Shown here: positions 48,304-63,781 of the stretch, one piece after another
How the letters are laid out: each line of letters begins with the position of its first letter
Position numbering within the stretch: position 1 is the stretch's first letter
NCBI GenBank assembly: GCA_026770025.1
Contig: JAMXDE010000079.1
Location: forward strand, 1-64,000
Origin: Craspedostauros australis
Taxonomy: Eukaryota > Bacillariophyta > Bacillariophyceae > Mastogloiales > Achnanthaceae
Reading direction: 5' to 3'
DNA: 64,000 nt
Notes under the pieces: model-generated
The model's database searches: none
Told to the model about the DNA's origin: nothing
Seen by the model: the letters and a program-made list of their open reading frames with translations, nothing else
Position numbers and translations under genes: made by a program

Positions 48304-51300
48304 ATGTCCGACCGCAATAGGAGGGGGAGCTTGCTGGATCAGATGGCCCTGGCCGCTGCTGTGCTTGATGCCGGGGATCTGGACAGCGACGATGACGATA
48401 CCGACGCCGATCTCAATGGCGCGGGTATGGGAATCGGTGTTGGGAGTGGATCGAACGGTGGTGATGACGACGTTGACGACGTTGACGACGATGACGATCA
48501 AGGACTCATCAACAGCGCCATGCACTTCAGCGGAGGCCGCGCTGGCATGAGCGACGGTGCCGTCGGCGGCCTCCGTGGCGGGCTTGGGGACAGGCCTTTC
48601 ACCGCTGGTTCCGAAGCACGACAATCGCCGGGGGGCATGATCCTCACTACTGACGAGTCAGAGGAGGCGGATGAATTCGAGAACCTGGGATACAAGCCCA
48701 TGAGCATGGACTACCAGTGGAATCCGACTCTCGGTCCAGTCCGGGACGACTCCATGGGAACCGAGGCCGAGGATGGCAACGGTGAAGATCTTGAAAAGTA
48801 CGGCTACGAACCCATGAGCATCAACGACCTCATTGACCCCGGTCGGCAGCGCCGCTCATCGTACCGCCCGGCCTCGCGGCGCACGTCTCACGCTGAGTCG
48901 GAGGGATCCTTCAATTCCGCACCAGCCAGAGCGGGATTGGACTCGTTGTCGCCCGGGCTTCCGCACGAACACCATCGTGTGGAGCGCCGGAGACCGCTCT
49001 CCATCTCTGTTCCAAATGCGCAGGGCGTCGAAACATCGAGGCGACACTCCGCCACGCTGCGCCGCCCATCGGTCAAAATCCACGCTCCCTTGTCTGGCTC
49101 GCTGGCATCCCAAAGCGACGAGACAACGCATTCCCAATCCTCCGGTTCGGGACACGGTCTGTTGGGCAGCGTGCGATCACGCAAGCGACGGTCAACACGA
49201 CGGCAAAACCTATCGTTGGCCATCAGTTCACGCAATGGGTCCGGATCGACGGGCACAGGAAGGAACGAGCTGGAGGCGGCGATCGAGGTTTTCAAGAATC
49301 AAGATGCGAACAACGAATGGGAGAATGTGGCTGCGGCAGCCGCGGTTGTCAGCGCGAGCGTCTCCGGAGAGGCGGCCAACAAGCGCAATCAGCAATTCGC
49401 CATCAACGAGACAGTCCTGGTCAACCTCACGTTGCTCAATGTAACTGCCGAGAAGGACTATCCGAAGGATCTTTGCACGATCGCGCCCGTCAATGCCGTT
49501 GGATTTCCGCAAGGCGAGGGTCAATCCGAAGCGGAGAGGAGCGGCCCGTACGCGTATGTTCTGTCGACGGTCAAGCATGCTCACTTCGATGAGGATGCCA
49601 GATACTACACCGTCACCCGTGCCGACACGGGGATGGAACAGCGGGCGGATTCCAGTAAGTATACACAAGTGCAATCGCAAAATTCGGTGCAGATTCGCCA
49701 AAATGCATGTGAATGGAGATGGCGTTGCATCGCATTTCATTGCATGTTGGTGCTTGCATCAGCAACATTGTTTCCTTTCATCGGCTTGGTTTGGTTTGAT
49801 TTGGTTTGGTTTTCGACCATGCATGGTCATGCAGTGCCAAGCTAACGATTTCATAACTTCTGCATTGTCGTAATTTCTCCATGATCAACATTGCTGAACT
49901 ACGGATATTGTTCTGCTCCGCCTCTGTCCCGTTCACAGATTGGATGGAACCCCTTCGAGATCCGGTTGCAATTCAATCGGCATACCGCGCCGCGGGCAGG
50001 ACGGTGCGATCCATGCAAGACAAGCCAGAAGAAGTCGGCGCCGCGCAGCACTTCGCAGATTGCTTTTGGATTGCCATCATGTGGCCGATTCAGTTCTTCG
50101 AGGATCGCATGGTTCCGTACTACAGGAAGCAAAGGATGAACCTCAAAATGATCGTCACCAAGCTTCTGTTCGGTGACGCGCCCTTCGCCTGCAGGCTCCG
50201 GATCACTGTGATCAATCTTCTCGTCTGCTGCAGCTTCTCCTTCCTGTTCCTGGAACTGGCCAACCTGGCCTTCATTCCCGCGGAATTCGATTACGGAGTT
50301 GCAGTCGCCGGTGTGTAAGTGCAGATGCAAGCGCGAACGCGAACAGCCGTCAACGAGATGGTTGTGCGAAGATGCGTTGCGATGCGATTGCCATGCATTG
50401 TGTCGTTTGTGTGGCATCAGCTCAACAAGCATATGAAAGGGACATGCTTGCGCATTGGCTGATGCACAGACCAAAGCAACTTTGCATCGCAGGCGTATTC
50501 TCACACATTTGTGCCTTGCCTTGGTGAAATTACAACTTTTCTTTCGCATTTCCCATCATCTACATCGTGTCCTCTAACAACAGCGTGATTTGGAGCATTC
50601 TTGCGTTGGAGCTCCTCTTTGAAGCAATCATTCGCCCGGCCGGTTACTACGACCTCATTACGACGGACAAGGCGTTTGCACCGTCCACCGCGCGACATGT
50701 GAACACCTTCCATCTCTTTTTCGAGGGTTTGGCGTTGCTCACATTCATTCCAGAGTTCAGCTGCCTCTCGGATGTAGACATGTGCACGCGACGCGGGGAA
50801 TTCTCCCGCCTCCAGGCATCGTTGGATTCCGTTCTTTCCGACGACTACGCGACTGCGATGAGAGGGCGTTTCATCCTGGGCATCACGACCTTGCGGTTGT
50901 TTGGGTTGGTGCGGCACTGGAAGCAAATGTGGATCAACACGTCTTTTAGCCCCGCGAAACGCGAAGGACTGGACAACTGGCTGTTCAGTCAAAGTCAAGT
51001 TCTGGGTTTGGAAAAACAGCGCACCAACACGCGATACAAGAAGACAGATGTGAGTTGTGATGCGTTGCGAAGTGTTGCTGAGTGCTGTGTGCTGACGACA
51101 TCGCTGCTGCTGATGCAATTGCTGATATCACTGGAATTGCTACCACAGCTGTGCACCAGTCCCCCATTATCGCCCGTTGTAAAAATCGGTTGTGATCGAG
51201 ACCTGGTGTTGCAACCGAGCATGTTTTCGACGATTCCCACTCCATCTCACCAAACGTTGCACTGCCAATGGTCCCTTTCTGCTGAATGCTGGCATTCTAC

Positions 51301-54300
51301 CATGTGCGCATTTCAAACCACTCTATGGCAATCTTGCAGGATGAGAGGGACAACGCTAATGCTTTGGAGAAGAGCGAGAGAAGTCCGCGAGATAGCAAGG
51401 GTACATCAGAAGAGGATGAACGGCTGAAGAATGCTGCAACCATTGGAACGGCGCTGATGGTTGTCAACTCCCATCGCGCACTGATACTTCTGTAAGTGTT
51501 TCCTCAACTTCGAGATCATTTGGAGGTTGAAGGCATCATGAAAGGGTGTTGCGAATTGCACACGCATTGGTGCCGCGAATTGCGTTTGAGTAAATGCAGT
51601 CCAGTCCAGTCTAATTCAATCGATGGTGTGCCATTTGAATTGTTCGCATCACGTTCTCACACATTCACGCTTTTGCTCTCTCGCTCCGTGCTCTCCCTCG
51701 TCTGCGACGAGATAACACACGATTCTGTTCTGCAATTCTCGCAACAACAAACCAATATCGATTGGCCATGAATGTCTCATGACGATTCAGAGTGGTAATT
51801 GTCATCGTGCTCCCGATCATCGATTCGTTGAAGCAAAACAATGTGGTTGCAACAGAATACATGAATCTATTGCAGGCCAACAACATTGCTGCCAAGACTT
51901 CCACCGACACTGACTGCGCCTTCTTGGAAACAGCAGTGAATTCGTGGCTGAACATGGCGTCCATTCCGCAACCGGAATTCTTTCAGGGTGATGTCGAGAG
52001 CACCTACGTGCTCTGGGCTCAACTCATGCCCGTGCGTTGTGACTTCCAGCGCTCTGATGGCGTCATCACGGTTTGCAGCGATGACATGAAATCAGAAGCT
52101 CCGGCAGTCTGTGAGGTGTGGGATTATACTGCCTCAGCCACGGACACGTCCGCGCGGTATTTTGCCAATGCGATCGGAGTTCGACCTGGTGGTATTCGGG
52201 AAGAATTCGGCAGTCCAATCGATGCTGAGTACACTGTGACTGCATTTTACAATGAAAATCCAAGCATCGCTCTTTCGTAAGTCACTTTGCTGCATTGATT
52301 GCTGTCAACTGCTCAAGCGGGAGCTGTTGGCCTTGTTGTGCATCATCTGAGTTGCTTGCCGTGATACTTCGGGTGTCGGAGCCTCATTGCATGACATTGG
52401 AAGCTCCCTACAAAGCGGAGATTCTGCGCGCGCAATAGTGTCAAATATATATATGAATGCTCACTCACTCACCCAAACGTACATCCATGCGTGCACCCAC
52501 ACACACACAATTGCGTGCTACGACGCCATTCCCATCATACACGGCGCCATTGTTTTTGGATGGAATGCGGAACGTGGTTGGGTCTGAATCTGGATTTACA
52601 GAAACATGGGGCTTCTCTTCCTGCTGTTTGGAATCCTCTTCCTTGGATTGTTTGGATTGCAGGCCCTCCGCAGTGACGCAATTCGACTGGTTTTGGATCC
52701 GCTGCAAAAAATGTTGAAAATCATCCTTCGATGTAAGTCCCACAGCACTCATACAGTAGATGAGGTAGAGGGCCGTGCGGCATGCCATGACATGGCCATT
52801 GCTGTTGATGCTGCTGCGTTGCATAACATTTTTGCATCAACGTTCATGAAGCGGATGTTTGGTGCCAAGCCTGCAATGCGATCCAACTCCACTCACCCAA
52901 ACCCACTCCCCAACTTACTCACCCATTCATTTGATTTTCCATCTGGTTATTCATTTTTATGTTTGTGTTCAACAGATGCCGAGAACCCATTGGCAGAACA
53001 AACGAAGGATGACGGGAAGGACGGAGATGACAGATCGTCGGCATCGGACAACGATGCTCTCGAAGAAATTGGAAACTACGAAACGAAACAGCTCATCAAC
53101 GCGATTGCCAAAATCGCGGACTTGCTCCGAAAGTGCTGGGGTGTTGCTGGAGCAGGCATCATCTCCTCCAACCTTGCCAGGACAAAGGATGGTGAAACTG
53201 TGGTGTTCAACCCGACCGTTCCAGGCAAGCGGGTTTACGCTCTGTTTGGATTCGTTGCCATCAACGGCTTCAGTCATCAGCTCCGCGCCCTGGATGGGCT
53301 CGTCATGGTACTCATCAATGACGTTGCGAAGGTTGTTCACGACGAGGTGTATCGATGGGCGTTGGGAGATAGTGGCCAGTGCAACAAGAATCTTGGTTCG
53401 GCCTTCCTGATGGTGTTCCGTATCGGCGACTTTTCGGAAGTCCATGAGAAGCAGAGACTGGCAACAGCTGTGGTGTTCGACGGGAACGGAAAAAGCACCG
53501 CCCGCAAGGTGCCGACCTTGCGCAACATGAGAGGAGGTAGGAAGAAACGCAAAGGCCATGGCGATGGCGATACCCTGCAACTGGCGTCGCTTCCAGGAAT
53601 CCAATCATTCTCGGACCGTGCGTTGCTTGGAATGCTAAAATCATTCGCCGGCCTTCACCGCGATCACAAGCTCAAGAAATGGAAGACGGACTTCCGACTG
53701 AGTGCTGGTGTGAATACGTACAGCGTCGAAGTCATCTACGGAATGGATGCTGGTTGGGCGGTTGAGGGCGCGGTTGGGAGCGAGTACAAGATCGATGCCA
53801 CGTACCTGTCACCCCATGTCAACATGGCATCGAGAATGATGAGCGCAACGAAGCAGTACGGCGTCACGATTCTGCTCAGCAAGGCCGTCGAGGAGATTCT
53901 TTCACGACAGTGCCGCAAGAAGCTACGTCATCTTGACACCGTCTACGTGAAAGGCAGCAAGGTCAAGCAGGATATCTTCACGTACGACGCACGACATCGC
54001 GGGGTCGACTTCTTCCTCATCGAACGAAGGCCTGAACAGGCAGAGGAGGATGCCGAAGCGTACAGCCCCACGATTTGGGAGGATGACCCCGACCTGCGCG
54101 CCATGAGACAGCATGTCACGGACCAATTTGCCGAGACCTTCGCTCTTGGTATCAGGCACTACCTCTCCGGCAAATGGACGTCGGCATACGAATACCTGCG
54201 ATCCGCCAACAACATCATGGTCGAGACGGTGGTCAGCGAAGGGTACATGGATCATGATCTGGAGGAGATGGGCGACGATGTCCTGGATTTCAGCACAACA

Positions 54301-54432
54301 GACGAAGAAATCATCCGCTTGCGCAATGAGTTTGGCGACGGTGCCTGCCGAGTGCTCATGTCTTACATCGAGAGGCGCAACTTTAAGGCGCCGCTTGATT
54401 GGGACGCCGTCCGACCGCTGCTCAGCAAGTAA
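48304..54432 (+). CDS. Multi-pass membrane protein with degenerate adenylyl-cyclase domain
   Basis: Seven exons join in frame to 1,472 residues: 48304-49654, 49939-50314, 50584-51049, 51340-51491, 51791-52276, 52602-52732, 52976-54432; all introns are GT-AG, five of the six with GTAAGT donors and intron 3 with GTGAGT. Residues 1-450 are disordered and acidic, with a repeated GY-[KE]-PMS motif. Four hydrophobic helices follow (about 539-560, 575-595, 616-635, 668-690), the fourth basic (RFILGITTLRLFGLVRHWK), like a voltage-sensor bundle. Then come a helix (765-795), a ~150-residue exposed loop, and a helix (945-966). The C-terminal class III cyclase domain has FGFVAINGF and NKNLGSAF, where active enzymes have Asp at Ala1082 and Ser1129. 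Lys1125, Asp1261 and VNMASR (Asn1270, Arg1274) are kept. It probably acts as a partner or binding domain rather than a cyclase by itself. Confidence 0.8.
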
Positions 54433-54744: not shown

Positions 54745-56661
54745 CTACAGAAAGTCTCCAACGTTGGCTGGCATCGGCCGAATTTTCGTGCGATAGAATT
54801 GTTCGATGCTCCTGAGGGTGGGCTTTTCCTCGTCCTTGACCAAGTTGATCGACACACCCTTGCGCCCAAATCGACCGGATCGTCCGATGCGGTGGATGTA
54901 GAGCTCCTTGTCCGCCGAGATATCGTAGCAAATGACCAAGCTGACCTGCTGCACATCGATACCGCGTCCCCAAAGATCCGTCGTCACGAGGACGCGGGAA
55001 GTTCCACCACGGAACTCGCTCATCACCTTGTCACGTCCCTCCTGATCCATGTCTCCGTGCATCGCACTGACGGTGAACTTCTTCTCTCGCAGCTTGTCCG
55101 CCAACCAATCCACCTTGGTGCGGGTGTTGCAAAAGATGACGGCCTGCGTGATGGTGAGGGTGTCGTAAAGATCGCAGAGGGTATCGAACTTCCATTCTTC
55201 CTTCTCGACGTCAATGTAAAACTGTTGGATGCCCTCCAGCGTGAGTTCGTCGCGCTTGATGAGAATTCGGATGGGATCGTTCATGAATTTCCTCGTCATG
55301 TCCAAGATGGTCGGTGGCAAAGTAGCGCTCATCAGGACGACCTGGCAGGCCGGTGGGATGTAGCGGTAGATGTCGTAAATCTGATCCTTGAACCCCCTGC
55401 TGAGTATCTCGTCTGCTTCGTCCAAGATGAGAGCCTTGAGGTTCTTCATGTTCAGGGCGTTGCGACGGATCAGATCGTAGACACGACCGGGCGTTCCCGA
55501 CACTGCTTGGACGCCGCCTCCTTCTAGTTCCTTGAGATCGAGTCCCAACGATTTACCTCCTACACAGGCATGGCAATTGACCTGTGCGCATGTTTGTTTA
55601 TGGAGCCCATCAGTACGTTGGAGTTGCGCGCAAAGTGTGGAGTCAGTGCGCATCGAAGAATTCAGCGAAATGTGAGAAAGGATCTGATGTTGTTGAAGTG
55701 TCTGCAGAGCGCTCGTAAGTACTCCGACCGCGGGTGCAGAGATGACCGGAGGAGTAGGGTACGAGCACTTTGTGTTCTCTCCCAAGAAAGAACGAATGCA
55801 GCTTTCATGACCAGCCTCATCAGCATCTGGTTACAAGTCATGGTGCATGTTGCGGCATCGCAACAATCGTATCGTTCAAGCAGTGGCGCACTCACGTTCA
55901 TGTAATCTCCAAGGGACTGCATGACCTTCTGCGTTTGCTCGGCAAGTTCTCTGGTTGGACTCAGAATGAGCACCTGGCAGTCACGCGATGCTTCGTCCAG
56001 CAATTGCAAGCCGGAGATCGTGAAGACTGCCGTTTTACCCTGAACATTATGGCAATGGATTGACAGAGTGAATGAAACATTGCATGAAGCATCATAGTAT
56101 ATTCAATTGTGTGAAGACGACCGAATGAATGTGAACGTTGCAACGACGTAAGGCGGTGAAAAACATGGGCATCAGAACGAACACGGGGATTGAAGATGAG
56201 GATGGAGTACTCGAAGCACAAATGAGGCTGCATGTGGAAGCAATGCAATGCAACGCAATCCATCCAAAGAAGAGCAAAACATGGCCGAATGCAGTGCATC
56301 ATCATAGCATGACTTGGCCCGACGCAACGCAACGCACCGTTCCTGCTTGCGATTGTGCAATGACGTCCCGTCCTCGGATGATGGGACGGATGGCCCTCTG
56401 CTGGATCGCTGACGGTTTCTCGAAGCCGTAAGCGTAAATCCCCTTGATCAGATCCTTCTTCAGATTCATTTCATCGAATGTGGCGCAGGGCGCCATGTCA
56501 TCGTTGGGATTCCATTTGCGACGTTGGTTCCTGTCGTGGCTGTTGCCATCCCGACCGCCCCTGCGGTTGCGATTATCATTGCCATTGCCACCGCGCCCGC
56601 GCTGATCGTACGGTCGAGGATTCTTGTGAGAGGCTCGTTCTTCTCGTTCGTGCTTTGGCAT
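54745..56661 (-). CDS. DEAD-box RNA helicase, eIF4A-III type
   Basis: Three exons on the minus strand (56661-56338, 56039-55896, 55581-54745) give 434 residues; both introns are GT-AG and phase 0. The start at 56661 (MPKHEREE) is the only ATG before the conserved region. Motifs in order: Q-motif region [13 protein letters not shown], motif I AGTGKT (split by intron 1 after AGT, 106-111), [18 protein letters not shown] (210-213), SAT (241-243), and [13 protein letters not shown]. The sequence [20 protein letters not shown] is a signature of eIF4A-III (DDX48/FAL1), the exon-junction-complex ATPase, rather than eIF4A-I. Unusual points are a Gly/Arg/Asn-rich N-terminus ([16 protein letters not shown]) and TDLWGRGID where the family usually has WARG. 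It is probably nuclear. It is transcribed divergently from the trigger-factor-domain gene, 610 bp away. Confidence 0.9.
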
Positions 56662-58369: not shown

Positions 58370-61300
58370 TTACTTGTACTCGTCGCGGTACTTCTTGAAC
58401 ATGGTGATCATATCTTCCACCTTCATCTCGCCGTCGACCTTGTTCTCTCTTGTGCGGATGTTAACGGAGCCATTCTCCTTCTCCTTAGCACCGACGACCA
58501 GCTGGTAGTTGTACTGCGAGACCTGAGCTGTGCGAACCTTCTTCTGGAATGTGTTCTTGGACAGATCGACGTCGACGTAGAAGCCTTCGGCGTGCAGCTT
58601 GTCGCGGATGCCCTGGCAGTACTCGTTCCAGTCGGCGTGGATGGGGATGATCATCGCTTGACGCGGGCTGAGCCAGAACGGCCACTTTCCACCGTAGTGT
58701 TCGCACAAGACAGCGAACATGCGTTCCACACTTCCAAGCATGGCTCTGTGGACCATCACCGGGATTCCGAACTGCTCGCCATCTCCCTCTTTCTTTCCGG
58801 TGTTGTACGTGAGTCCGAATCTGCGTGGGAGCTGGAAGTCGAGCTGGATGGTTGCGCACTGGTGCACTCTCTCCATGGCGTCCATGACCTTGATGTCAAT
58901 TTTTGGTCCATAGAAGGCACCGTCGCCTGGGTTTTCTCTCCAGTTGCCTTCCCCGATGAATCTGTTCATGGCTTCGGCAAGGGCGCTCTCGGCGCGGTCC
59001 CACAGCTCCATTTCACCAAGGGCCTTCGCTGGTCTTGTGGAGAGCTCAAGCTTGTAAGTCATGCCGAAGATGTCGTACACATACTTCATGAATTCCAGAG
59101 CACCAAGAACTTCATCGGCGATCTGGTCCTCGCGGCAGTAGATATGGGCGTCGTCCTGCTGAAAGCGGCGGACACGGGTCAAACCGCTGAGGGCACCAGA
59201 AAGCTCGTTGCGGTGCAGCACACCGAAGTCTGCGAATCGGATTGGAAGGTCACGGTATGAACGGAGGGAGTTGCCGAACATGAGACAGTGACCTGGGCAG
59301 TTCATTGGCTTCATGGCCCATTCCTGCCCTTCCACATCGAAGCAGAACATGGCATCCTTGTAGTGCATGGCGTGGCCGGACTTGTGCCACAGATCGAGGT
59401 TGTAAACATTTGGTGTGATGACCTCGTCGTAGCCGCGCACCCAGTACTGCTTCTTGATGAATTCGATGAGCTTGTTGTAGATTCTGGCACCGTGTGGCAA
59501 CCAGAACGCACTTCCAGCCGACAGATCATGGAACATGATGAGCTCTTGCTTGGCAGCAATTCGTCTGTGATCTCTCTCCTTGGCCTGTGCGTGTTGTTTG
59601 TTTGTTTGTTTGTTTGTTTGTTGCGTTGGTGTTTTGTGTTGTTATTCGTCCGCAGCCGAGTGTTTGCATCGTTTGCATCATTCGTGTTGTTGTTATCGGT
59701 TTGGTTTGCATGGGATCGGATCAGAACATGAGTGTGCAAAGCAACAAGGGGGGAGGAAGAGATGTGTTAGTCAGAAGTTGGTGCTGATCGTGTTGGTTGC
59801 CTGTGCCTGAATGCAAGAAAAGGTTGCGCGGACTTGGTGTTGATGCTCAGAATAATCAGCGAGTTGGATAGATGTTTCGATCATGTGTATTTTGGATCTG
59901 AGAATGAGATTCGTATCGGATATCGTCATTGCATCGTCGTGCGGTTGTATTGTAACCGCTGCCACCATTGCTGCTTCTGCTACGTGTGCATGCAATGGTG
60001 TAGTGCCATGGTGTCACAAGGTGTGCTTTGTTGTGTGTGTTGCGGCGTGCTCTGTTGAGTTGTGATCTTACCTTCTCCTGGTTCTCCTTCCATGCCTTGA
60101 GCATCTTCTTGTCTGGGAAACTGATACCGTATATGCGCTGCAGCGAATCGTTGTCGGTGTCACCGAGCCAGTTGGTGGCAGAGTGCTTGGTGGTGGCAAA
60201 CGCCTTGATCTTTCCCGTGTGCGCCACGTGCGGTCCGCGACACAAGTCGATCAAATTGCCGCATTTGTAGACTGTGGTGCGGGTTCCATCAGCGACCTTG
60301 GTGGTCAAAATCTCCTGCTTGAATGGATTGTCAGCAAACAGTTCCAAGGCTTCTTCTTTTGTGACGACCATGCGTTCAAACTTTTGCTTCTGCTTGGTGA
60401 TTTTGGAAACCTTCGCCTCGATTGGCTTGTCTGTTGTTGTTGTTGTTGTTGTTGTGAGTCCAGAATGAATGTAACATGGTTGTCATTGTGCAGTGATTGC
60501 AGTTGTTGTTGTGAGAAGGACATGATGGAATGGACGGACGAGGATACTGCTGCGATGCGCTAGTGTGTGCGTTGTGAATACACGAAGCCTGTCACAACGA
60601 AAACAAGAACAGCAGCAGCAGCAGCATGTGATCACCACAAGCGGAAATGGCCATTTGAAGGCCAACCCACTTCTTGAATGCACGATCGGGATATGCAGAT
60701 CCATGTGCACATCCTTAACCATGCCCAATCAATCATACGCAGCTGACGTCGGTACTCACAATCATCCTCACGGAATGCATCCGCTCCCATGTAGGAATCG
60801 TAGTAGAAACCTCCCGCAAGTGGTGGTCCGATGGTGAGCTTGCAACCGAAGAGGTTCTCCATGGCCTCTCCCATCATGTGAGCGGAAGAATGCCAGAAGG
60901 TGGTCTTGGCATCCTTGTCGTCGGCGAATTTGAGGAACTCTATTTTGCTGACAGGGCCAACGAGCGGTCTCGTCATGTCCCAGAGCAGGGTGTTCTTGGC
61001 GGCGTCATCGTTCTCGACGCCACCGTCGTCCATGGCGTCCATGAGCGTGTCCTCTCCCTCCATGCCGTCCTCGGCGGCATCGTAGTCGTCGGCGAACTTC
61101 TCGTAGGTGACGCGCGCAACGATGGAGTTGTCGGCCAGACCTTGGCTGATGGTCTGCGCGACGAGGTAGGGAGTGGTCTTCCAGGTCATGTAGTCCTCGC
61201 CCTGCTTGGTCTTGTCGAGGACCTTGCCGTCGGGCAGGGTGACCGTGATGGCGACGGGGATCTTGGTGGCAAACTCTGCCTCGCGTCGGGCCTTGATCTT

Positions 61301-61588
61301 GGCGTAGACCTCCTCTCGTTGCTTGAGGAATTCTGGGTCCATGGTGCGCTGCACGAAGGAGTCTCCTCCGATCAGCTTCTTCCCGGAGTTGTCCATGCGC
61401 GGTCCTGCGGAGGCATTGGCACGGCGTCCCTGCGCGCCTTCCTTCTGCTGCTTGGATGCGGCGGCCGGTGCCGCAGCCGGTGCGGCTGCTTCGGGCTGCT
61501 TGACTCCTGGCGCATCCAGCACCATGAATTTGCCCGTCTTGTTGAGCATGATGGCGGCGGCTCCGCCCTTCTGATTCTTCTTGCCCAT
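58370..61588 (-). CDS. Threonyl-tRNA synthetase
   Basis: Three exons on the minus strand (61588-60760, 60430-60072, 59584-58370) join in frame to 800 residues; introns are 329 and 487 nt, the second with a (GTTT)7 run. The start at 61588 (MGKKNQKGG) is the only ATG; the frame continues upstream without one. Domains: a Lys/Ala-rich tail, a TGS domain (about 110-165, [16 protein letters not shown]), an editing domain with HSSAH (233-237) and LCRGPHV, class II core motif 2 ([21 protein letters not shown]) and motif 3 ([12 protein letters not shown]), then the anticodon-binding domain ([19 protein letters not shown]). It charges tRNA-Thr with threonine. No plastid or mitochondrial signal is visible on this start, so it is probably cytosolic. 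A short upstream frame from ATG 61938 (MTFEKPKRVILP) might be an alternative first exon for organelle targeting, but no splice link is clear. Confidence 0.93.
59594..59621 (+). repeat. (GTTT)n run in ThrRS intron 2
   Basis: Seven tetranucleotide units just upstream (in gene direction) of the CAG acceptor of intron 2. Confidence 0.9.
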
Positions 61589-62431
61589 CTTGGTGTCTGT
61601 TGGAGTGCTGTCAAATGATGTCCTTTCTTGTGATGTGATGTCTTGTGATGTCTTGTGGTGTCTTGTGATGTCTCCTATGGTATAGTCTGTGGGGGTTGTG
61701 AAGGGATCCGATCTTGTGATCGCTCTGGCGCAGGCTGTTGTCGTGATGATGGCTGATGTGGATGTCTGCAACAGGCAAGGCTGAAGGCTCTTTGGCGGCA
61801 CCAAGTAACAGATTCACGACGGCCTTTGGACGCAGGGAGAGATGTCATGTTGGCCTTGTTGTTGGTGTTGGAGGTGTTGGTGTTTGGGACATTCTTGGGT
61901 TTGGGCAGAATCACTCGTTTCGGCTTCTCAAAGGTCATTTTCTTGATGCGAGACAGATGAATTCCTGATTCCGTTCGCCGCTTCTTCGACTATTCGTCCA
62001 ACATGCTATGGTATAAATCTAGAGGCAGACACACAGAGAGACAGAGAGAGGGAGGATACTCGTGGGAACTCAAGGCAGAGGTGCAGAGCAGAGAATCGTA
62101 CACCCGCACTCTGGAACTGCTCAAGAGCAAGGGCTTTCAATGAGAAGCCCAACGATGGTGGTCCTTGTGAACGTGGAGAAGGAGGTTTTGGCTATCTCAT
62201 CACATGTGCAAGTACACATACCCTTGGGTGACTCTACTTCTCTGATCCTCGCCTACTCCTCTATGTGTGTATTACTCCACTCCCGTGCGATGCAATGCAA
62301 TGCGACACCAAGAGGTTGATCAAGTGCAGACCGAGACGGATGAAACCAAATGGTCAGACTGCCTTGTGAGTCATACTCGTAAGTAGGGTGTACTAGAATG
62401 TTCTGCTCTATAGAACAGTCACGTGCAAGCA
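61589..62431. other. Spacer between KIN17 and ThrRS genes
   Basis: 843 bp. Near the ThrRS start it has a short imperfect tandem repeat of TCTTGTGATG (about 61,620-61,675). A minus-strand open frame from ATG 61938 codes for a Lys/Asn/Thr-rich peptide of uncertain meaning. It should contain the ThrRS promoter and the KIN17 3' end. Confidence 0.5.
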
Positions 62432-63781
62432 TCACGACATCTTCGAGAAATCTTCGTACGCCACCTTCTTGGCGCTCGTCCCATCCCGTTCCAATTCCAA
62501 CGACGCCACGGCTTTGTCCTTGTTGAGGTCCTTCACAACTGCCTTCTCCCCACGGTGCGGTCCATTCAAAATGCGCACGCGCTTGCCGACGCTCGGGATC
62601 ACCGTCTCCAAATCTGCCTGATCCAGCCTCAGCACATCGCCGCCGTCGTCGGCGCGTGGGCCAGAGTCCAGAACCTCCACCTCCGCCATGTACTTGTCGA
62701 TCACCTTTTCCACGATGGCCTTGCGTTTGAAGTACTGTCCGTCCGCCAGCTTCTTTGACACGATGCGGACGAGGATGCCTTGCTTCAACCAGTAGTCCTT
62801 CCAATCGGAATTGCTCGTCTTGGATCGTTTGCCGCTGCTTTTCTTGCTCTTATCCTTTTCACTTTTGGATTCGGATATGTCCTTGTTCTTTCGTTTGTTC
62901 TTTTTGGATTCGCGCCGTGACACATCGGCTGCGTCATCCCGCTTCGGATTTCTGAATGATGGCATTTCGTTGGAGGCAGAAGTTGGCGGATCCATGCTCT
63001 TGTTGATGTTTTCATCGCCACCGCTGCCGTTTCCCACTTCGTCGCCATCACTGTCATCACTGTCATCATCTCCAAAGACGGATCCCTTCTTCTTGTTCTT
63101 GCCCTTCGACTTGGATTTCGACGATGACGACACCGCAGATGGCTGCTTCCCCAGTGCTAACTTCACCTGCTCGCCGTCCTTGCGTTGCATTTTGGTCACG
63201 ACAGCATCCACATTGCCACCTGCTCTATCGAATGCCTTGGCCGCTTCGACTCGCTGGATCTTCATTCGCTGTGCCTCGGCTGCCTCCGCCTCCTTTTCCG
63301 CCTGCTGCCGACGTTCCAACGCTTCCTTACGCGCGATGATGTTCACATCACGTTCGATGTACGACACGTACCAACCGCGCTCCGTCTCCTCCACGACGCA
63401 TTTTCCCATCTTTCCCAGGTACTGCACGAACTCGGACAGCGTCACCCACTTCGTGGCATTCATGTGAATGTGCCCCTTGTCAGCGATCATCTCCTGGTAG
63501 ACGTTGTTGGCGTTGACGCGTTTCGTGCCATGGCGCATCCGCAGCGTGCTCATGTACGCCGATTCGAATTCCTTGGAGAAGCTGTCCAGGATGCCGCTCG
63601 CGTTGTCGCTGAAGATCTTCATTTGTCGCAGATGGGCCTCCGAGGTGAGATGACATTTGAAACCGTTGGCATCGCGGCATTGCTTTTCGCACATCTGGCA
63701 GTAGAACTTCAGCTTCTGCAGTCCCTTGGACTTCATGCGCTTGGCAATGTCCTTCGGTGTTCCCTTTTCGGCTTTCGGCAT
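62432..63781 (-). CDS. KIN17-like DNA/RNA-binding protein
   Basis: 449 residues, no intron, start at 63781 and stop TGA at 62432. The N-terminus (KGTPKDIAKRMKSKGLQKL) is that of eukaryotic KIN17. Next come its zinc finger (YCQMCEKQC...HLTSEAH, residues about 27-53) and the winged-helix region (about 51-160: FSKEFESAYMSTLRMRHGTK, HMNATKWVTLSEFVQYLGK, ERGWYVSYIERD). The middle is Lys-rich with nuclear-localisation-like stretches. The C-terminus has the tandem SH3/KOW-type domain (YFKRKAIVEKVIDKYMAEV, VGKRVRILNGPHRGEKAVVK). KIN17 proteins bind DNA and RNA and act in nuclear replication, repair and splicing. Here the linker between the winged helix and the KOW part is long and charged. Its TGA stop sits at the expected end of the family, so TGA is a true stop codon in this genome. 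Confidence 0.93.
   Translation of the reverse strand: MPKAEKGTPKDIAKRMKSKGLQKLKFYCQMCEKQCRDANGFKCHLTSEAHLRQMKIFSDNASGILDSFSKEFESAYMSTLRMRHGTKRVNANNVYQEMIADKGHIHMNATKWVTLSEFVQYLGKMGKCVVEETERGWYVSYIERDVNIIARKEALERRQQAEKEAEAAEAQRMKIQRVEAAKAFDRAGGNVDAVVTKMQRKDGEQVKLALGKQPSAVSSSSKSKSKGKNKKKGSVFGDDDSDDSDGDEVGNGSGGDENINKSMDPPTSASNEMPSFRNPKRDDAADVSRRESKKNKRKNKDISESKSEKDKSKKSSGKRSKTSNSDWKDYWLKQGILVRIVSKKLADGQYFKRKAIVEKVIDKYMAEVEVLDSGPRADDGGDVLRLDQADLETVIPSVGKRVRILNGPHRGEKAVVKDLNKDKAVASLELERDGTSAKKVAYEDFSKMS

Follow-up and report, generated by a model that had tools for sequence, protein, structure and literature searches.

To our knowledge, the membrane adenylyl cyclases described so far are either homodimers or single-chain C1-C2 tandems. 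The catalytic site of the mammalian membrane enzymes is divided between C1 and C2, and the same kinds of residues are divided in the diatom genes studied here. A division between separate genes, also shared with these genes, is found in soluble guanylyl cyclase (sGC), whose complementary subunits are described in the excerpts of PMC3591389 as carrying the metal Asps in alpha and Arg552 and Lys593 in beta, with homodimers inactive owing to this same residue split. However, according to the same excerpts sGC is soluble, NO-regulated and forms cGMP, and its sensor parts are unrelated to those of the diatom proteins. The chytrid rhodopsin-guanylyl cyclases RGC1/2 with NeoR are, in the excerpts of two studies, obligate heterodimeric membrane cyclases of a microbial eukaryote that are encoded by separate genes (PMC7655827, PMC8815786), although RGC1 and RGC2 retain all catalytic residues and their obligate pairing has another cause (PMC8815786).

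A voltage-sensor region is combined with a class III adenylyl cyclase in the ion-channel adenylyl cyclases of Plasmodium, Paramecium and Tetrahymena (Weber et al. 2004, as cited in excerpts of PMC12414865 and PMC10651576). Those proteins have a K+ channel pore, whereas by eye the protein studied here has no GYG-type filter between its last two membrane segments. For the Phytophthora VSD-cyclase family (PPTG_13136 type), the excerpted description gives a voltage-sensor-like membrane region without pore-helix homology, a C-terminal class III cyclase, and two diverged paralogues in one genome (38.75% identity; PMC12223298). The main text of that paper does not use the words homodimer, heterodimer, aspart or diatom, and it seems to leave pairing and the metal residues aside. 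The same text ties the family exclusively to flagellated or ciliated organisms, whereas a search of the present genome for dynein heavy chain (AAA_9) yielded a single match (G000:C11:1049233-1049889), which suggests that axonemal dyneins are absent from it. Searches for IFT46 and IFT57 gave no match, with IFT46 matching no control and IFT57 matching its control only under the cut-off, so that neither result indicates absence.

The window, a 64,000-nucleotide stretch of eukaryotic sequence on contig C77 of the diatom Craspedostauros australis genome, contains a gene of seven exons with GT..AG introns (48304-54432, + strand; Table 1). The residue numbering of its 1472-aa product is identical to that of a preliminary description of this DNA. 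The protein has a membrane region, segments flanking a loop, and a single C-terminal cyclase domain. Four hydrophobic segments were above threshold in a hydropathy scan (539-557, 570-588, 778-796 and 948-966); two further segments in exon 3, placed as S3 and S4 (with the end RLFGLVRHWKQMW), were under this threshold and were assigned by eye. Structure comparison indicated that the cyclase domain has the class III fold, and its Guanylate_cyc match of 25.1 bits (cut-off 21.9) was confined to profile positions 98-178 of 183.

Table 1. Exons and active-site residues of the cyclase gene, and neighbouring open frames in the window.
Feature	Position	Strand	Description and basis
Exon 1	48304..49654	+	Long N-terminal region, acidic and Ser-rich; no Pfam match; GT donor at 49655
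Exon 2	49939..50314	+	Hydrophobic segment 1 (539-557) and start of the second (570-588); GT..AG, frame and hydropathy scan
Exon 3	50584..51049	+	Remainder of hydrophobic segment 2, segments placed as S3 and S4; acceptor chosen by frame
Exon 4	51340..51491	+	Linker, beginning of membrane segment 778-796
Exon 5	51791..52276	+	Remainder of membrane segment 778-796, then inter-segment region of ~150 aa, presumably extracellular
Exon 6	52602..52732	+	Membrane segment 948-966, leading into the cyclase
Exon 7	52976..54432	+	Class III cyclase domain and C-terminal extension; Pfam (25.1 bits) and fold
Ala1082	53257..53259	+	Replaces first metal Asp (FGFVAINGF)
Lys1125	53386..53388	+	Purine-specifying Lys, kept
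Ser1129	53398..53400	+	Replaces second metal Asp (NKNLGSAF)
Thr1263	53800..53802	+	True purine position, 7 before Asn
Asn1270	53821..53823	+	Transition-state Asn, kept
Arg1274	53833..53835	+	Transition-state Arg, kept
Lys1313	53950..53952	+	Kept; equivalent of C2-half Lys1065 (VKGS motif)
DEAD-box helicase	54745-55785	-	Neighbouring open frame
Class II tRNA synthetase core and anticodon-binding domain	58373-59536	-	Neighbouring open frame
TGS domain	60635-61804	-	Neighbouring open frame
KIN17-like protein	62435-63781	-	Neighbouring open frame

Alignments of the cyclase domain bore out the preliminary description in its main point, that both metal Asp are absent: Ala1082 and Ser1129 stand at their positions, and no alternative Asp was found at either. 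Lys1125, Asn1270 and Arg1274 are present as it had stated, and the purine residue, which it had placed at Asp1261, was corrected to Thr1263. The window protein does not have both metal Asp in one chain, as a self-sufficient homodimer would, and its residues are of the C2 type, with the metal Asps gone and the Lys, the purine residue, Asn, Arg and the Lys1065 equivalent all present. Mammalian C2 has a Ser at the second metal position, comparable to Ser1129. In addition, among the 50 structure matches listed, the heteromeric mammalian entries shown were 8hbh, 8hbf, 4ni2, 1cul and 8sl4, and in all five the best chain or range among those listed is of the C2 or beta type.

Protein searches of the genome (74.8 Mb, 90 contigs) used three queries, namely the window protein, the C50A protein and 528 aa of a complete Poribacteria relative; each identified the identical four genes and no others, and none of the searches with these three cyclase-bearing queries found a complete subfamily member in the genome. 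The four are the window gene; a paralogue on contig C38 that is 57% identical to it over the last exon; and C50A and C50B, a convergent gene pair on contig C50 whose products are 59% mutually identical. At seven active-site positions (D396, K938, D440, purine T/D, N1025, R1029 and K1065, in mammalian numbering), the residues are A-K-S-T-N-R-K in the window protein, A-K-G-T-N-R-K in C38, D-K-D-T-E-F-L in C50A and D-K-D-T-E-F-E in C50B. The C2-like set of the window protein is seen in C38 as well, the equivalent of Lys1313 included, and the C50 set is nearly its mirror image.

Both C50 genes have the residues of a C1-type partner, with the Asps kept (in FLFCDIRQF and NKNVGDAF) and the Asn and Arg lost. 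The preliminary description had suggested either a nucleotide sensor or a partner with the two Asp present and Lys, Asn and Arg missing. The latter prediction was accurate for the Asps, for Asn (now Glu) and for Arg (now Phe), and the C2-type Lys of the VKG motif is replaced too, by Leu or Glu; it failed for the purine Lys, which is retained. The retention of this Lys and of the Thr, by which the C2 set is only partly lost in the C50 pair, counts against a heteromer. So does the Arg484 position, which is Gly in the C50 pair and Ile or Val in window/C38; L132, L134 and L123, relatives with a complete site described below, have Gly there too. Were losses distributed randomly among the seven positions, the two losses of the C2-like pair would coincide with the metal pair, and all three losses of the C1-like pair would avoid it, with a chance of 1/21 x 10/35, about 1 in 74, a rough figure calculated after the fact.

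Because the window gene is without the metal half and sister genes in the same genome are without the other half, a cyclase that functions only as a pair is probable. On our reading, the window protein is quite likely a C2-like subunit in an obligately heteromeric membrane adenylyl cyclase made from separate genes, for which either C50 gene would provide the C1-like partner. The dimer would pair a C50 protein with a protein of the window or C38 type. As in animal adenylyl cyclase or soluble guanylyl cyclase, one of its sites would be complete and able to cyclise ATP, and the other would be degenerate. Where the two chains meet, the C50 protein would give the two metal-binding Asps, and the window protein would give Lys1125 and Thr1263 for adenine selection, Asn1270 and Arg1274 for the transition state, and Lys1313 for the phosphate. 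Such a complex would be expected to assemble, to produce cAMP and to respond to membrane voltage or to a signal from outside the cell. Each of the four genes showed a single cyclase domain, so that none has C1 and C2 in one polypeptide as the mammalian tmACs do, and C1-like and C2-like genes are found on separate contigs.

Alternatively, C50A and C50B might be active alone, either weakly or with other residues replacing Asn and Arg, and the window and C38 proteins might be only modulators. Some mycobacterial class III cyclases function with altered purine or transition-state residues and offer a precedent; moreover, the C50 proteins keep both Asps, the Lys and the Thr, and their altered Asn/Arg half shows good conservation from one gene to the other (42/47). 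Yet in both genes the residues that replace the Asn, the Arg and the C2-type Lys (Glu, Phe and Leu/Glu) differ from them chemically, and we regard independent activity of the C50 proteins as improbable.

Comparison of the two halves of the site indicated different constraint in the two gene pairs. Between the window gene and C38, identity was 45/47 for the Asn/Arg half and 44/62 for the metal half (p = 0.0009, Fisher), with dN/dS ratios of ~0.03 and 0.19, respectively (Nei-Gojobori; dS was 0.9-1.6, near saturation). Between C50A and C50B the identities were 42/47 in the Asn/Arg half and 54/58 in the metal half (p = 0.51), and dN/dS was 0.06 and 0.07, again by Nei-Gojobori with dS near saturation. 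Constraint is strong on the half expected from each subunit, and the metal half is relaxed in the window/C38 pair. That relaxation is confined to this pair counts against a heteromer, as the C50 Asn/Arg half, with its Glu and Phe, is as conserved as the C50 metal half. This half still holds the kept Lys-Thr region, and it may perhaps have gained another role.

The pattern in the window/C38 pair is unlike that expected for decay or for a pure nucleotide sensor. Loss of both metal residues is what a decaying, functionless duplicate could display. However, the near identity of the Asn/Arg half and its dN/dS of ~0.03 argue against decay, as do a 1472-aa frame that is intact across seven exons with GT..AG introns and the occurrence of the same pattern, under strong purifying selection, in a 57%-identical paralogue; we consider decay very improbable. 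The window and C38 proteins could also be regulatory pseudoenzymes, forming homodimers or pairing with other proteins and binding ATP that is not cyclised, as nucleotide sensors or dominant modulators. The absence of both metal Asps from both paralogues would agree with this, and nucleotide binding is plausible with the purine Lys/Thr pair kept. A mere sensor would have no need of the transition-state Asn and Arg, however, and these lie within the most conserved stretch; the phosphate Lys is retained as well, and a complementary gene pair is present in the same genome. A role as pseudoenzymes is accordingly unlikely in our estimation.

Complete relatives of the subfamily were identified outside this genome via a DNA pattern for the Asn/Arg motif, on two contigs in the GTDB collection. 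(A first pattern scan of a collection of genome contigs had given 87 matches, of which 0 were confirmed; no relatives were confirmed in viral contigs, where the pattern match L122 was a chance match within a 62-aa frame.) One of the two, L124/L132, is a 790-aa open frame of a Candidatus Poribacteria genome that adjoins ABC-transporter genes, and by eye its segment order is the same as that of the window protein. Relatives at E <= 1e-30 were carried by 3/84 Poribacteria genomes, the source included, the other two being 86% and 52% identical. The second, L123, is from a Verrucomicrobia metagenome bin and is probably a eukaryotic contaminant, because its frame is broken as if by introns and its own bin was the sole match among 387 genomes of its phylum (E <= 1e-40).

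In L132, L134, L135 and L123 both Asps, the Lys, the Asn, the Arg and the VKG Lys are all present, and the purine position is Ser. As these relatives, from three Poribacteria genomes and one eukaryote-like contig, are complete, each diatom gene pair has probably lost a different half of the site. Identity to the Poribacteria protein was 33/58 (C50A) and 32/58 (C50B) in the metal half, compared to 19/58 (window) and 20/58 (C38), and in the Asn/Arg half it was 30/47 (window) and 28/47 (C38), compared to 21/47 (C50A) and 23/47 (C50B). In a tree, the four diatom genes grouped with these relatives against two outgroup cyclases, and the diatom pairs were supported at 100/100 and 98/99, with the branching order among the pairs and the relatives not settled.

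The membrane regions of the two diatom pairs were compared with a Poribacteria voltage-sensor profile, as single comparisons. The C50 region gave E = 7.6e-05 with a probability of 34%, and the window/C38 region gave E 0.26, which is not significant. By eye, the C50 pair has an FWCD motif in S3 and C50A has an S4-like FRTLRVARYVR. The C50 pair thus probably carries a voltage-sensor domain, judging from a weak match. The layout of the window/C38 region is similar by eye to that of C50, although no homology was detectable between them (E 0.43). Exon 3 of the window gene is 47% identical to C38 (over query 147-281), and the C38 membrane region as a query matched only C38 and the window gene. In Pfam, exon 3 of the window gene had no match and the C50 membrane exons had no Ion_trans match. 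The Poribacteria protein matched Ion_trans over positions 3-129 of 241 (E = 5e-4; 19.8 bits, under the 25-bit cut-off), a match that spans the voltage-sensor region without the pore part. Against solved channels, it gave sodium channels at E values (0.39-1.4) that are not significant and ranked under ribosomal proteins.

These comparisons bear on a broader scenario, in which diatoms swapped a self-sufficient cyclase linked to a voltage sensor for an obligate heteromer with two C1-like and two C2-like genes, the sensor being recognisable only in the C1-like proteins. We consider this scenario credible, with the balance tilted slightly against it.

A PF00211 profile search of the genome matched at least 150 stretches (150 of 155 candidates were scored). 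The C50 genes are absent from this listing though their proteins, scanned directly, score 25.6 and 22.2 bits and so exceed the cut-off, and for this reason further diverged cyclases may be missed. The stretches were joined into loci, of which 95 were examined and 28 were outside the count, with the window, C38 and two odd loci treated apart. Asp, Asp, Asn and Arg were all present in 84/95 loci; in three more (L097, L102 and L118) the first Asp was outside the matched exon, and eight were degenerate, one of which (L089) may be an exon edge. At the Lys position, 93/95 had the Glu of the guanylyl type; L117 has Asp instead, and L118 has a Lys that lies at an exon edge. Set beside the loci examined, the four subfamily genes stand apart as a Lys-type, complementary set.

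With so many guanylyl-type receptor cyclase domains in the genome, the C2-like proteins could in principle partner with these and not with the C50 proteins. Most of these domains, however, look self-sufficient, given the 84 complete loci and the 93 with Glu at the Lys position, and as they were missed by the subfamily protein searches they are only distant relatives; we find such a partnership hard to credit. Two low-scoring Guanylate_cyc loci (C2:1632726 and C9:2294862) were candidate relatives by score and were of other types by eye. Locus L043 (G000:C9:2291500-2298500) has two cyclase-like segments followed by ATPase-like sequence and resembles, by eye, soluble adenylyl cyclase of the ADCY10 type. 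Two guanylyl-type loci are half-degenerate: L090 (G000:C57:342059-342998) keeps both Asps, with Asn replaced by Asp and Arg by Ser, and L088 (G000:C11:1655471-1656431) has Asn and Glu for the Asps and keeps Asn and Arg. These are possibly another complementary pair. In L119 and L120 (G000:C15) and L121 (G000:C1), a cyclase domain with degenerate positions follows a kinase-like motif (by eye), and these loci look like receptor pseudocyclases.

No report of a diatom cyclase or a voltage-sensor cyclase with a split active site was found in the open-licence PMC literature. If the broader scenario outlined above holds, the enzyme would be a membrane adenylyl cyclase with its catalytic site split between genes, up to four subunit combinations would be possible, one kind of chain would sense voltage and the other a second signal, and the Phytophthora paralogue pair may work likewise. 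Membrane cyclase halves from separate genes would make a natural AND gate that joins two signals, and would point to more than one origin of the C1/C2 split. The proposal provides a direct, testable hypothesis for diatom cAMP signalling and for the pair of oomycete flagellar cyclase paralogues whose function is unexplained.

Two neighbours of the cyclase genes examined have, by eye, plastid-type transit peptides; taken with the single dynein heavy chain match and the silicon transporters, this agrees with a diatom origin, which is very probable on these grounds. Elsewhere in the genome, the silicon transporter profile PF03842 matched 88 stretches (best E = 4e-249), an unusually large family in which ~30 stretches are close to full length and some contain internal stops.
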